Positions 2,522 to 8,311 of a DNA stretch of 40,894 bases are shown piece after piece. The position numbers and the translations under genes were made by a program. The DNA is from Actinomycetes bacterium (lineage in GTDB: Bacteria > Actinomycetota > Acidimicrobiia > IMCC26256 > PALSA-610). Below the pieces are notes generated by a model that had not been told where the DNA came from, did no database searches, and saw only the letters and a program-made list of their open reading frames with translations. The stretch lies in contig JAODBI010000200.1 of NCBI GenBank assembly GCA_025463875.1, positions 1 to 40,894 on the forward strand, in the 5' to 3' direction. Each line of letters begins with the position of its first letter. Position 1 is the first letter of the stretch.

Positions 2522-2947
2522 TCAGAGGAAGTCGTTGATTCCTTCGCCTTCGACGATCGATGCGATACCGGCGGCGTCGCGTTCGGCGAACATCGCCGCG
2601 TCCCAGATCTCGATGTGATCGAAGCTGCCCGAGACGATCACCTCACGGTCGAGGTGCGCGTACTCCCGCAGGTGTTGCGGGACCGCGACCCGGCCCTGCT
2701 TGTCCGGGGTGATCTCGACCGCGCCGGCGAAGAAGGTGCGAGCCGCCTGGCGCTCGCGCGATCCGCGTTCGCGTGCTTCGCGCAGCTTGCGGGCCACCCG
2801 GTCGAACTCGGGGACGGGATAGACGGCGAGGCACCCGTCCAGAGCTCTTGCCATCACCGCACCCCCCTCGAGCTGTTCGCGGAACCGGACCGGGAGGATG
2901 ACCCGACCCTTGGCGTCGAGGGAGTGCTGAAACTCCCCCAGGAACAT
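2522..2947 (-). CDS. mraZ: Transcriptional regulator MraZ
   Basis: A 141-residue DNA-binding protein of the AbrB-like fold, first gene of the division and cell-wall cluster. In E. coli MraZ represses its own operon by binding closely spaced 10-bp repeats in the promoter. The protein shows the two tandem family motifs: FQHSLDAKGRVILPVRFRE near the N-terminus, and the second copy with EITPDKQGRVAVPQHLREYA at about residues 77-96. Length matches the family. The start is ATG at 2947, and GGGGTGA stands about 8 nt upstream. The upstream region carries a promoter and periodic GTGG(A/C) repeats that look like its own operator (3023-3080). Confidence 0.97.
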   Translation of the reverse strand: MFLGEFQHSLDAKGRVILPVRFREQLEGGAVMARALDGCLAVYPVPEFDRVARKLREARERGSRERQAARTFFAGAVEITPDKQGRVAVPQHLREYAHLDREVIVSGSFDHIEIWDAAMFAERDAAGIASIVEGEGINDFL

Positions 2948-3022
2948 TGCCGATCACCCCTGTGTGTCATTTCGTCGGTACTGCGTTCAGTACTGCGCCC
3001 GTTTGCACGTCGTCGGGAAGGA

Positions 3023-3080
3023 TTCACTCCCCTTCCCTCCACTGGCCGCCACCTTATGACACAATCCTCCACTACGTCAA
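3023..3080 (-). promoter_or_regulatory. mraZ operon promoter with three 10-bp-spaced repeats (candidate MraZ operator)
   Basis: On the minus strand TTGACG (3080-3075) and TAAGGT (3056-3051) are separated by 18 nt, a good housekeeping promoter. Starting inside the -10 box and running downstream are GTGGC (3052-3048), GTGGA (3042-3038) and GGGGA (3032-3028), one helical turn apart. MraZ is known to bind direct repeats of a TGGG-type core spaced by 5 nt, so this is a likely autoregulatory operator covering the transcription start. The same 204-nt gap must also drive the divergent coiled-coil gene at 3152. Confidence 0.6.
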
Positions 3081-3151
3081 CACTCTCCTCCCCCGGCACC
3101 CTCTTGAACGCACAACCACCACACGACCCACATGTCCGTTGGAGGCTTTAA

Positions 3152-6100
3152 ATGGCGATCCGCTTCGGCTGGACCCGACCTCAGGCCCGTCCCAAACCGT
3201 CCGATGATGAGGCCGTGGAGGAGGTGTCGTCCGCGCCCGCCGAGCACGACGTGCAAGCGGCACCCGATGCGATGGGTCCCGCAGGCACGCCGGTCGAAGT
3301 GGCGAACGAGAACGCGGAGGCCAGCAGCTTGGAAACCCACACCACGCCGGGAGAGCTCTCCGGAGCGGGTACATCCGAGGCACATGCCCCGGCCGCGCCG
3401 ACCTCCGACGCACCGCCCTCAGAGACAACGCCTTCGGACGCACCGACTTCGGACGGACCGACTTCGGACGCGCACGATCGCGGTACAGAGAGCGACGACG
3501 CTTCTCCTACCGACGCTTCTCCTACCGACGACACGCCTACCGAAGACACGCCTACCGAAGACGCGCTCGCCGACAACACCGCGACCGACAACACTCTTAC
3601 CGACGACTCACCTGCGTTCGACACAGGTAGGGACGACACATCAACCGCAGTCGCCGCGGGCGACCCCATCTCGGAGTCCGGCACCGTGACACCGCCGTCA
3701 CCGGAAATGATCGAAGCGATCTGGAGCATCCACGAACGCGTGCTCGAAGCCGAGCGCCGGACGCATCGCATCATCGGCGCCGCCGCGGCGCGCCGCGTGC
3801 ACCAACAGACGCTGCTCGAGGAAGTCGACGCGTTGCGCGCACTCGGCTTCGATCGATTCGCGGAGTTCGCCGCGGCCCACGGCGTTCAGCTCGCAGCCGG
3901 CGAAACTCCTCCGGCGCCGGCCGACGACGAGCCGGAGACGGCGGGCGAGACGATCGGCCGCATCCGCGTGCTGCTGAGCGAGCTCGGTATCGAACCCGGC
4001 GTCGATCCTCTGCAAGCCGCGAAAGAGTTCCTCGACGTCGTGGAGAGTCCGGACGCCGCGCCGGCAGAACTCGAACTGTTGCAAGAGAGCGCGGGTGAAC
4101 CCGAGCCCGTCGGCGCGAATGGCGACGAATGGGTTACGGCACCCGTTGCCGAGATACCCGTTGCCGAGATACCAGTCGCCGAGGTACCCGTCGCCGAGGT
4201 ACCGGTTGTCGAGGTACCCGTTGCCGAGGTTCCGGTCGCGGAGACGCCCGTCCTTCCGGTCCCGGATGCCGCGGCGGCGGCAGGCGGGTTTGTTGAATCG
4301 TCGGGCGGCGCCCCGTTCGACGAGCAGGGTCTCGAGCTCGCGCTCGCCCGCGCCGAGCGCTGGCATGCCGAGCTGGAGCAGGTGCGTATCGAGCTGCAGA
4401 CAGCTACCGATGCGAACCAGGTCGCCGAGCACGACAGCGACGAAGCGCGCCGCGAGCTCTCCCGCCTACGGGGCGACCTCGAGCTCGCTCGCGAGGCGGC
4501 ACGCGTCGCCGAGGCCGAGATCGCGCAACGGACCTCGGAGCGCGACGACGCCGGAGCACGGTGCAGTGATCTGGAGACTCAGCTCGCCGAGCTCCGCGAC
4601 GAGTCGGACGCGACGCGTTCGGGCGTCGAGCTCCGTCAGCAAGAGCGGGCCGAGATCGAGGCCCGCCTGAACTCGGCGCAGCAACAGATCGACGAGCTCG
4701 AAACCCGTCTCGCCGAAGCCGACGCCACACGTTCCGGTGTCGACGCCGAGCTCGATGCCGCCCGCAACCGCGCCGTCGAGCTGGAAGCGACCCGCGACCA
4801 GCTCGCGGGACGCATCTCCGAGCTCGAGGCGGCCCTTGCACAACACGCGACGACAGGTGCGGAGCACGAAGCCCGGATCGAAGAGCTGCGGGTGCGCGTC
4901 GCGGAGGTCGAGTCGACACTCGCCGAGCGCGAGTCGACTCTTCAGGCGAACGAGCAGTCGCTTTCGGCGACGAGCGCCCGTGCGGATGAGCTCCAAGCCG
5001 CACTCGGCGACCGCGAGACAACCCTCCGTCAGCGCGACGACGAACTGTCGACCACCACGGCGCGGCTCCGGGAGCTCGAATCCGCCGTTGCGGAACACGG
5101 GAGCACGGTCGGCGAGCAGGAGACGAATCTCGCCGCGGCGAGCGCGCGGGTGAGCGAGCTCGAGTCGACACTCGCCACGCATGAATCCGCGCTGCAGGAG
5201 CACGAACAGAACCTGACCGCGGCGACCACGCGCGTCCGGGAGCTCGAGACCTCCCTGGCCAATCGTGAAACCGAGCTGCGCGAGCGCGACGCGAACCTCG
5301 CGGCCGCAACCGCACGCGCGCTCGAGCTCGGGCGCGCCGTCGAGGCCGGCACCTCGCACGCCGACACGGTCCGCGAAGATCTCGCGGCCGCGCAGGCGCG
5401 CGCCGACGATCTCGAGAACCGGCTCGCGCATCAGGAATCCGAGTGGGAGCGCCTCGGCCACGACCGCCAGGGCGTGCTGCACGAGCTCGAGCAGACGCAT
5501 GCACGTGTCGCGGAGCTCGACGCGACCCTCACCGAGGCTCACAGCGCCCGCGACGACTTCCGATCCGAGATGCAGACCGCCCAGGCGCGAGTCGGCGAGT
5601 TGGAGCAACGGTCGAACGAGCAACAGGCCGAGATCTCCAGCCTGTCCGAAGCGATCGGTGCGACCCGCGCCGAGCTCGATGCAAGCCGCGCCTACGTGGG
5701 CTCACTCGAATCGGAGCTCGAGCACCTGCGTCGGGAGCTCCGAACCGCCGAAGTCGACCGAGACGATGCCCGCCGCGCACAACAGATCGCAATCGAGGAG
5801 CGCGACGCGGCGATTGCGCACCGCGACGGGACGTCCCGCGAGCGCGACGAAATCGCCCGCCAGCGCGACGCGGCCTTCGTCGAGCGCGACAGAGCCGCCG
5901 GCGAACGCGACACCGCGCGGCAGGAGCGCACGGCGGCCCTCGCTGCCCGCGACGACATCTCCGTGGCTCACGACGAAGCCCAACGCACGCTCGCCGATCG
6001 GACCGCGGAGCGCGACGACGCGCGCACGACGCTGCAGCAGCGAACGTCCGAGCGCGACGAAGCACTCGAAGCAGTCTCGGAACACGCACGCCGGCGTGAC

Positions 6101-7657
6101 GAGACGAACGTGCTCCTCGGACAAGCCGACACCGAGATCGCGAGGATGGAAGCCCTCGTAGTCGCGCACGAGACCGAGCGGGGCGAGTCACTCGTCGAGC
6201 TCGAAACCGCCCGGGTTCGGGTCGCCGAGCTCGACGCTGCACTCGAAGCCCAGGTCGCCGACCGCGATGAGGCGATCACGCTGCTACAGCGCGCCCAGTC
6301 GGAGATCGCCCGCCTGGAAGCCGTGCTCGCCGGCCGGTCCGCCGACCGGGAAGAGGCGATTGCGGAGCTGGCTCAGGCCCGTGTCGAGACCGAGCGACTC
6401 GAGGCTGCCGTTGCGGCGCAGATCGCAGAGCGGGCCGAAGATCGCGACGACGCGATCGCGCAGCTCGAGGACGCGACGACCGCCATCACCGGACTCGAGA
6501 CCGTCTACGCCCAGGAGGTGGCCGCGCACCAGAGCGCGCGGAGCCACCTCGACGAGGCCCGGGCGCGGGTTGCCGCCCTCGAAGCGGCCGTCTCGGATCT
6601 CGCAACTGCACGCGACGAAGCGCGCGACGGCCTCGACAAAGCCAACGGGGAGATCGCCCGGCTCGAAGCGTTCGCGCACGGCACGACGGCCGAGCGCGAC
6701 GAGCTGCGCGACGCGGGGGCCTCGGCCACCGCCCGCGCCGACCGCCTCGCCGAGCAGCTCGAGGGAACCCGGGGCACGCTCGACGCGATGGCCGCGCACG
6801 CCGAGGAGCTCGAGCTCGAGCTGGCCCGGGCCGAAGCCGCGATGCCGTCGAGCGAGGCGCGTCTCGAAGCGGAAACGATCATCGCCCAGGCCCAGGCCGA
6901 CGCGGACGATCTTCGCCAGCAGGCGATGCGCGAGGCGGAGACGATCCGGCGTGACGCGCTCACCACCGCCGAAGGCATCCGTGAGATCGCACAAGAAGAC
7001 GCCCGGGAGCTGCGGAACCGCGCGTCCGACGTCGCGGTCGGCGACTCGGAACGGGCCGACCTCGTCTCGGACCTGGTCGAGCGCATGGCGAAGCTCGATC
7101 GCCGGCTCACCAAGCAGCGGAAGCGCATCGAACGCGCCGCCGATCGAATCGAACGCGGTGAACGCGCCGAGTACGCGGGCATGGAAGCCGACGAGATCCT
7201 GGAGCGCGCCGAGAAGAAGGCCGCGCGTCAACGCGAGTCCGCGGAGAAGTACGCACGCGCGCAGCGTGGCGAGGCGGACGAGTACGTCAGCGATGTACGC
7301 GCCCGGGCAACCGAGACGGCCGCCGAGTTGCGTACGGCCGCCGAGCGGGACGCGACCAAGCAGCGCGAGGACGCGCTCGCCGCAGCCGCGCAACTACGCG
7401 AGGACGCCGAACGGGACGCCACGAACCAGCGGGCGGCCGCGCAACGCGATGCAGCCCGCATCGTCGAGGCCGCCGAGCAGGAAGCGGCGAAGCAACGTGA
7501 GGCCGCCGAACGCGATGCGGCACAGCAGCGCCGGCTCGCCGAACGTGAAGCCGCGGAGATCCGCGACAAGGCCCGGATCGAACGCCAACGGGCACGCGAC
7601 GAGCTCGCCGTACTGCTCGAGCGGCTCGCCGGTCCGAACCCCGCCGACGAGGGCTGA
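3152..7657 (+). CDS. Very large coiled-coil protein divergent from the division cluster (cytoskeleton/polarity-like)
   Basis: A 1501-residue protein with a strong start (GGAGG 6 nt before the ATG). Regions seen: residues 1-180, acidic and low-complexity with repeated TPSDAPTSD and SPTDASPTDD/TPTED units; about 184-250, a conserved-looking helical domain (SIHERVLEAERRTHRI); about 330-367, a pentapeptide array PVAE(I/V); about 390-1240, almost unbroken heptads rich in A, R, E, L with repeated ELE, RERD and ERDD blocks; about 1240-1490, charged helix with repeated AERDA(T/A)KQRE units reminiscent of DivIVA and ATPase b-subunit tails; end GPNPADEG. There is no signal peptide or membrane helix, so it is cytoplasmic. 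Scy and FilP of Streptomyces are precedents for long coiled-coil proteins acting with DivIVA in polar growth; shared function is inference. I recognise no exact orthologue. Confidence 0.9.
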   Translation: MAIRFGWTRPQARPKPSDDEAVEEVSSAPAEHDVQAAPDAMGPAGTPVEVANENAEASSLETHTTPGELSGAGTSEAHAPAAPTSDAPPSETTPSDAPTSDGPTSDAHDRGTESDDASPTDASPTDDTPTEDTPTEDALADNTATDNTLTDDSPAFDTGRDDTSTAVAAGDPISESGTVTPPSPEMIEAIWSIHERVLEAERRTHRIIGAAAARRVHQQTLLEEVDALRALGFDRFAEFAAAHGVQLAAGETPPAPADDEPETAGETIGRIRVLLSELGIEPGVDPLQAAKEFLDVVESPDAAPAELELLQESAGEPEPVGANGDEWVTAPVAEIPVAEIPVAEVPVAEVPVVEVPVAEVPVAETPVLPVPDAAAAAGGFVESSGGAPFDEQGLELALARAERWHAELEQVRIELQTATDANQVAEHDSDEARRELSRLRGDLELAREAARVAEAEIAQRTSERDDAGARCSDLETQLAELRDESDATRSGVELRQQERAEIEARLNSAQQQIDELETRLAEADATRSGVDAELDAARNRAVELEATRDQLAGRISELEAALAQHATTGAEHEARIEELRVRVAEVESTLAERESTLQANEQSLSATSARADELQAALGDRETTLRQRDDELSTTTARLRELESAVAEHGSTVGEQETNLAAASARVSELESTLATHESALQEHEQNLTAATTRVRELETSLANRETELRERDANLAAATARALELGRAVEAGTSHADTVREDLAAAQARADDLENRLAHQESEWERLGHDRQGVLHELEQTHARVAELDATLTEAHSARDDFRSEMQTAQARVGELEQRSNEQQAEISSLSEAIGATRAELDASRAYVGSLESELEHLRRELRTAEVDRDDARRAQQIAIEERDAAIAHRDGTSRERDEIARQRDAAFVERDRAAGERDTARQERTAALAARDDISVAHDEAQRTLADRTAERDDARTTLQQRTSERDEALEAVSEHARRRDETNVLLGQADTEIARMEALVVAHETERGESLVELETARVRVAELDAALEAQVADRDEAITLLQRAQSEIARLEAVLAGRSADREEAIAELAQARVETERLEAAVAAQIAERAEDRDDAIAQLEDATTAITGLETVYAQEVAAHQSARSHLDEARARVAALEAAVSDLATARDEARDGLDKANGEIARLEAFAHGTTAERDELRDAGASATARADRLAEQLEGTRGTLDAMAAHAEELELELARAEAAMPSSEARLEAETIIAQAQADADDLRQQAMREAETIRRDALTTAEGIREIAQEDARELRNRASDVAVGDSERADLVSDLVERMAKLDRRLTKQRKRIERAADRIERGERAEYAGMEADEILERAEKKAARQRESAEKYARAQRGEADEYVSDVRARATETAAELRTAAERDATKQREDALAAAAQLREDAERDATNQRAAAQRDAARIVEAAEQEAAKQREAAERDAAQQRRLAEREAAEIRDKARIERQRARDELAVLLERLAGPNPADEG

Positions 7658-7731: not shown

Positions 7732-8241
7732 TCAGGCGGAGACGGCCTCGGCTGGGCCGAGGTACTTGTGCCACACCGGATCGATCGGCCCCGCGGACGC
7801 GATCAGCGACGTCGTCGCGTGCGGCGCGACCGGCGGACGCCGCAACACCATTCCGCACTCGTGCGGTAGCCGGGCTTCCTTGCGGGCGTTGCATGCCCGG
7901 CACGAGGCGACGACGTTCTCCCACGTGTGGGGCCCACCGCGCGAACGGGGCAGCACGTGGTCGAGGTTCTCGGCCGTGATCCCGCAGTACTGGCAGCGGT
8001 GACCGTCCCGGGCGAACACGGCCCGCCGCGACAGTGGCGCCGTAGCGCGGAACGGGACGCGGACGAAATGCACGAGCCGGATGACGGTGGGTACCGGGAC
8101 GTTGCGGCGCTCGGAGTGGAACTCGGCACCGTTGCGGTGGACGATCTCGGCCTTCTCCTTCAGCACCAGCACGACCGCGCGCCGCGACGACACGACGCAG
8201 AGCGGCTCGAAGCTGGCGTTGAGTAGTAGCGCCCGGGCCAC
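7732..8241 (-). CDS. HNH endonuclease
   Basis: A 169-residue single-domain nuclease of the group common in actinobacterial chromosomes. An N-terminal alpha/beta region opens ALLLNASFEPLCVV and is followed by a complete HNH core: CQYC (83-86) and CRAC (114-117) as the zinc-binding knuckles, DH at 94-95 as the catalytic part, and N109. The frame is open much further upstream, but the GTG at 8241 is chosen because GGAGGTGAT precedes it and the family begins at this point. Substrate is unknown; such stand-alone HNH proteins are not tied to a restriction methylase here. A possible -10 TACGCT lies near 8265-8270. Confidence 0.85.
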   Translation of the reverse strand: MARALLLNASFEPLCVVSSRRAVVLVLKEKAEIVHRNGAEFHSERRNVPVPTVIRLVHFVRVPFRATAPLSRRAVFARDGHRCQYCGITAENLDHVLPRSRGGPHTWENVVASCRACNARKEARLPHECGMVLRRPPVAPHATTSLIASAGPIDPVWHKYLGPAEAVSA

Positions 8242-8311
8242 GGATGAATCACCTCCCCGTGCGCCGAGAGCGTAGCTTTTCCACCGCGGTCGCCGTTTCT
8301 CCTGATCGCTC

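Follow-up and report, generated by a model that had tools for sequence, protein, structure and literature searches.

What is the role of a giant coiled-coil protein whose gene lies beside mraZ and faces the division genes? The window analysed here, a stretch of 40,894 nucleotides from a soil bacterium whose genome assembly is 88% complete in 403 contigs, carries such a gene (termed CC in the following) at positions 3152 to 7657 of the plus strand. A preliminary description had taken the protein for a new scaffold coupled to septum or pole construction. Closeness to mraZ alone is, however, weak evidence for a division role. We propose another reading, to which we give an even chance: CC may serve as a scaffold for placing or regulating a type IV pilus motor, comparable to the cyanobacterial protein HmpF, and was relocated beside mraZ in one clade. 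Since relatives of CC elsewhere adjoin type IV pilus motor genes, a pilus-motor scaffold moved beside the division genes appears likelier than a new division protein.

The open reading frame encodes 1501 residues and has a coding-type codon composition over its full length, with a GC content by codon position of 0.80/0.51/0.81. Orthologues are present in two further species of the genus (genomes G001 and G002), and dN/dS between the species amounts to about 0.17–0.45 in the conserved parts. Both conserved ends of the protein are under purifying selection (dN 0.15–0.27 versus dS 0.5–1.1). To the left, across an intergenic space of 204 nucleotides (2948–3151), lie the divergent genes mraZ (2522–2947, minus strand; PF02381, 1e-32), rsmH (1e-104), ftsL and ftsI, where the FtsL-like frame and the FtsI N-terminus (808–2) were both identified by position and sequence appearance only. 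To the right a convergent gene with an HNH endonuclease domain match (7735–8304, minus strand) is followed by MoxR, DUF58 and TgpA genes. The reading frame and its divergent arrangement with the division genes are thus as initially described. The conserved block in the intergenic region is an mraZ promoter-like TTGACG...CATAAG with MraZ-type GTGG repeats in a 10-nucleotide period (3029–3080, minus strand), and the same block also precedes mraZ in relatives that have no CC gene; for CC itself, scanning with a consensus gave no sigma-70 promoter. We also note that many relatives possess more of these GTGG repeats in the mraZ promoter than the window does. A tRNA-Arg (CCT) reported by ARAGORN on the antisense strand inside the CC gene (5872–5957) is probably spurious and due to repetitive coding sequence, because Rfam finds no tRNA there.

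The protein begins with a low-complexity acidic head (residues 1–173; 3152–3670, plus strand as are all following segments), whose length varies strongly between species and which is largely absent in G002. Residues 1–185 contain 40 Asp and Glu compared to 6 Lys and Arg. A small domain of three helices follows at about residues 184–248 (3701–3895), which we name LGF and which defines the family, independently of any gene neighbour. It is recognized from the alignment, from class-wide profile matches and from the AlphaFold2 prediction, where pLDDT is above 90 over most of the helices. Its signature consists of a histidine, an arginine, L..E..AL, and then GF-x-(S/T/R)-(Y/F)-x-x-(F/Y). A fold search revealed no solved relative of the domain (best E 0.29). 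Family members show an LGF domain followed by coiled coil, and this is the arrangement of the window protein.

Downstream of the LGF domain a second short helical motif, GETIGRIRVLLSELGIEPGVDPLQAAKEFLDVVES (3944–4048), is nearly identical within the genus. The order after the domain is this short motif GIEPGVDPLQAAKEFL, seven PVAE(I/V/T) pentapeptide units (residues 331–365; 4142–4246), a heptad coiled-coil rod (residues 395–1215; 4334–6796) and a hendecad tail. The hydrophobic periodicity of the rod is 3.50 with a normalised power of 65.6, and only one proline occurs in about 830 residues; this coiled-coil signal far exceeds chance. The tail (6845–7636) combines an alanine-core hendecad coil (residues 1232–1495, period 3.67, power 14–16) with a conserved basic segment, and species of the genus share about 73% identity in it. 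The highest hydropathy over 19 residues is 1.4, and no membrane segment was found. The acidic head, the PVAE array and the non-membrane character given in the preliminary description are therefore borne out, whereas its label of a DivIVA-like tail has to be replaced, as the tail is an alanine-core hendecad coil without a DivIVA domain. Matches to Tropomyosin, CENP-F, SMC, Rad50 and PspA models in Pfam and NCBIfam stayed below the cut-offs and were set aside as coiled-coil resemblance. The window protein has 1501 residues, that of G001 at least about 1468 and that of G002 about 950; elsewhere homologues have 721 (G007), about 1000 (G021) and at most 430 residues (G047). These large differences, which amount to about 500 residues within one genus, come from the rod and the head.

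The placement beside mraZ is derived and is conserved within a small clade. Three species of the genus have the CC gene at this site, as does one other genus of the same family (G006). G002 holds a complete copy on contig C145. In G001 contig C141 carries the first part next to mraZ, and C96 carries the last part with HNH-MoxR-DUF58-TgpA after it, so the gene occupies the same site as in the window. Across 20 further genomes of the order, less than 520 nucleotides separate mraZ from the HNH gene, and no coiled-coil gene lies between them. As HNH directly follows mraZ in these 20 relatives, the CC gene is a lineage-specific insertion, found only in the window's genus and G006, rather than an ancient component of the division cluster. 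The reading frames of CC, PilB' (see below) and mraZ are all broken in G006; because all three are affected alike, assembly errors are the probable cause. Scanning the collection with a genus-only alignment returned two public MAGs, palsa_610 and BP_122. A match in G052 was dropped, since it runs antisense to a cytochrome P450 gene.

A hint towards function arises from homologues outside the genus. A profile of the LGF domain identifies ten homologues in the order, and seven of them are immediate neighbours of ATPase genes of type IV pili. In G006, G007, G020 and G021 the adjoining downstream gene, on the same strand, encodes a second, separate ATPase of the pilus-extension type with MshEN-T2SSE architecture, termed PilB' here. 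The gap between both genes is 65–68 nucleotides in G007 and G020, and essentially none in G021; in G020, PilB' is itself followed by pilT-pilC-pilB. A shorter LGF-coil homologue adjoins pilB2-pilC in the remaining three (G023, G034, G047). These pilus-adjacent cases span four families of the order. The relatives in G007, G020, G021, G023, G034 and G047 are all away from mraZ. Six of the ten homologues thus have no link to it, which is what the preliminary description itself had named as refuting its reading. G006 unites both situations: the CC gene lies beside mraZ, and PilB' still follows it.

PilB' forms a separate clade, sister to the type IV pilus PilB (support 98/92 in one tree and 0.999 in another), and its Walker A motif is intact in the sequences of complete members. 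We located it at G006:C1:2555014-2556856, G007:C30:24070-25782, G020:C33:1763-3424, G021:C1:430210-431808 and G001:C2:51237-52901. In the window's genus the CC gene is followed by the HNH gene instead of a PilB-class ATPase gene, and PilB' is encoded at another locus (a fragment on G000:C295, a complete gene on G001:C2, and G002:C46/C437); the genome of the window protein is among those that encode it. As the two genes are apart there, a shared role in this genus rests on their co-occurrence. Counted by genus, PilB' accompanies the long form of CC in 5 of 5 cases compared to 1 of 27 genera without it (Fisher p 3e-5), where one must keep in mind that poor assemblies could hide PilB' fragments and that genera and genomes are not fully independent. 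The ATPase is patchy in the order, with nine genomes and 6 of the 32 genera carrying it; the genomes are mostly metagenome assemblies, several of them fragmentary, and independent cases are few. In G040 and G044, PilB' stands beside type IV pilus genes without an LGF-coil gene. Separately, the MshEN domain matched short open frames (215 residues) at G000:C276:12653-12910 and G003:C191:10580-10837, where the matched stretch contains one TGA.

Taking gene neighbourhood, co-occurrence and the likeness to HmpF together, we infer a contact of CC with PilB', a particular cell location and an effect on pili. CC would be a cytosolic coiled-coil scaffold, and the genomic partner conserved in its family is a type IV pilus motor gene. 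The N-terminal LGF domain and the C-terminal hendecad tail could serve as contact ends, with the heptad rod as a spacer of variable length between them. In this way the protein may place or regulate an ATPase of the PilB class near the membrane or the pole, with PilB' as the most likely candidate, and in the clade of the window's genus and G006 its gene would have been inserted between mraZ and the HNH gene. HmpF is a coiled-coil-rich cyanobacterial protein needed for twitching and found with PilB (PMC7002697). CC is likewise soluble, rich in coiled coil and linked to the PilB class of pilus ATPases; the link is experimental for HmpF, whereas for CC it is one of gene neighbourhood, and we claim no sequence relation. 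SgmX of Myxococcus, a TPR-domain protein reported to stimulate pilus formation at the pole (PMC7519303), is a further accessory protein of pili and belongs to another sequence family. Type IV pili have barely been described in Acidimicrobiia, and a search of an open-access library returned no paper treating them together with coiled coils. A coiled-coil family travelling with a second ATPase of the pilus would offer an entry point for studying how these bacteria place or switch its motors.

The adjacency to mraZ, kept in all three species tested, could nevertheless mean a new role after the move. One such scenario, recruitment of the inserted protein to septum or pole construction in the manner of Scy and FilP, we regard as rather unlikely. 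Besides the divergent position kept in the genus and G006, it can draw on the tail, an alanine-core hendecad coil that reaches 27 bits with the Scy model (NCBIfam NF041483) where six shuffled tails give no score; yet the curated cut-off is 1040 bits, the match is confined to the tail, and we read the similarity as a shared type of hendecad coil, which does not make CC a member. An extended coil of this type is present in the C-terminal tail only, which is insufficient to place CC with Scy and FilP, although the very long rod is a further likeness to them. An RGYDxxEVD motif at the N-terminus, preceding a dimeric coiled coil, is common to DivIVA, FilP and Scy (PMC9858780), and a motif search did not find it in CC; the main rod of CC is a heptad coil, its N-terminal domain is unrelated and its gene neighbours are others. 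With DivIVA/Wag31 it has in common the coiled coil and a gene near the division cluster, but PF05103 gives no match to CC in Pfam scans and separate DivIVA-domain proteins are encoded elsewhere in the same genome. Together with the 20 relatives that lack the gene at this site, the pilus genes beside its homologues and an intergenic block that belongs to mraZ whether or not CC is present, this argues against a coupling to septum or pole; of the initial proposal the coiled-coil scaffold is supported, and its division-specific part is not. A combined version seems improbable to us: a scaffold family built on the LGF domain, which also forms the mid-coil part of a degenerate SMC-like protein, would serve the second type IV pilus motor, and in one clade it would have come under the divergent promoter region of mraZ, setting pilus placement together with cell division. 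It is also doubtful that a structural coiled-coil gene simply landed in a permissive intergenic gap without any tie to mraZ or pilus genes. The loose length of rod and head within one genus would suit such an origin, but the purifying selection on both ends would not, and the neighbours of the distant homologues are not random, given the seven in ten beside pilus motor genes. Regarding DivIVA, G000 contains a second, large DivIVA-domain protein (G000:C28:12543-12902; open frame of 671 residues) besides the ordinary one, and similar second copies occur in most genomes checked.

The pilus-motor reading also has to be weighed against a relation of the LGF domain to chromosome organisation. The domain occurs in mid-coil position in SMC-like proteins of roughly 700–1025 residues across the class, which have a degenerate head with no Walker A seen and a Walker-B-like end. 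The homology between the LGF domains of both families holds in both directions: the profile-profile comparison yields E 7e-12, and a profile from SMC-like members alone matches the window protein at 2e-8. The model of one SMC-like protein resembles Rad50 (E 2e-8) and MukB. If the shared domain reflected a common DNA-organising function, CC would be a DNA-related protein. We consider this quite improbable, as CC lacks the head domains and ATPase motifs of SMC/Rad50 proteins (their models match the coil only, far below cut-offs, no ATPase family matched, and Walker A and B were not found) and has no DNA-related neighbours in common. The SMC-like genes lie at scattered sites, none of those examined adjoins pil genes, and no SMC-like LGF protein was detected in the window's genus. 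Weak LGF matches in G033 and G039 were dropped for want of a matching gene call.

The case thereby exposes a small helical domain common to the CC family and a Rad50-like family that is undescribed. Five SMC-like members were scanned and had no Pfam or NCBIfam match except one weak coil resemblance. The family is spread across Acidimicrobiia (L198, L199, L203, L204, L205, L209, L211, L212, L213, L231 and others), and some of its members carry a C-terminal zinc-binding segment.
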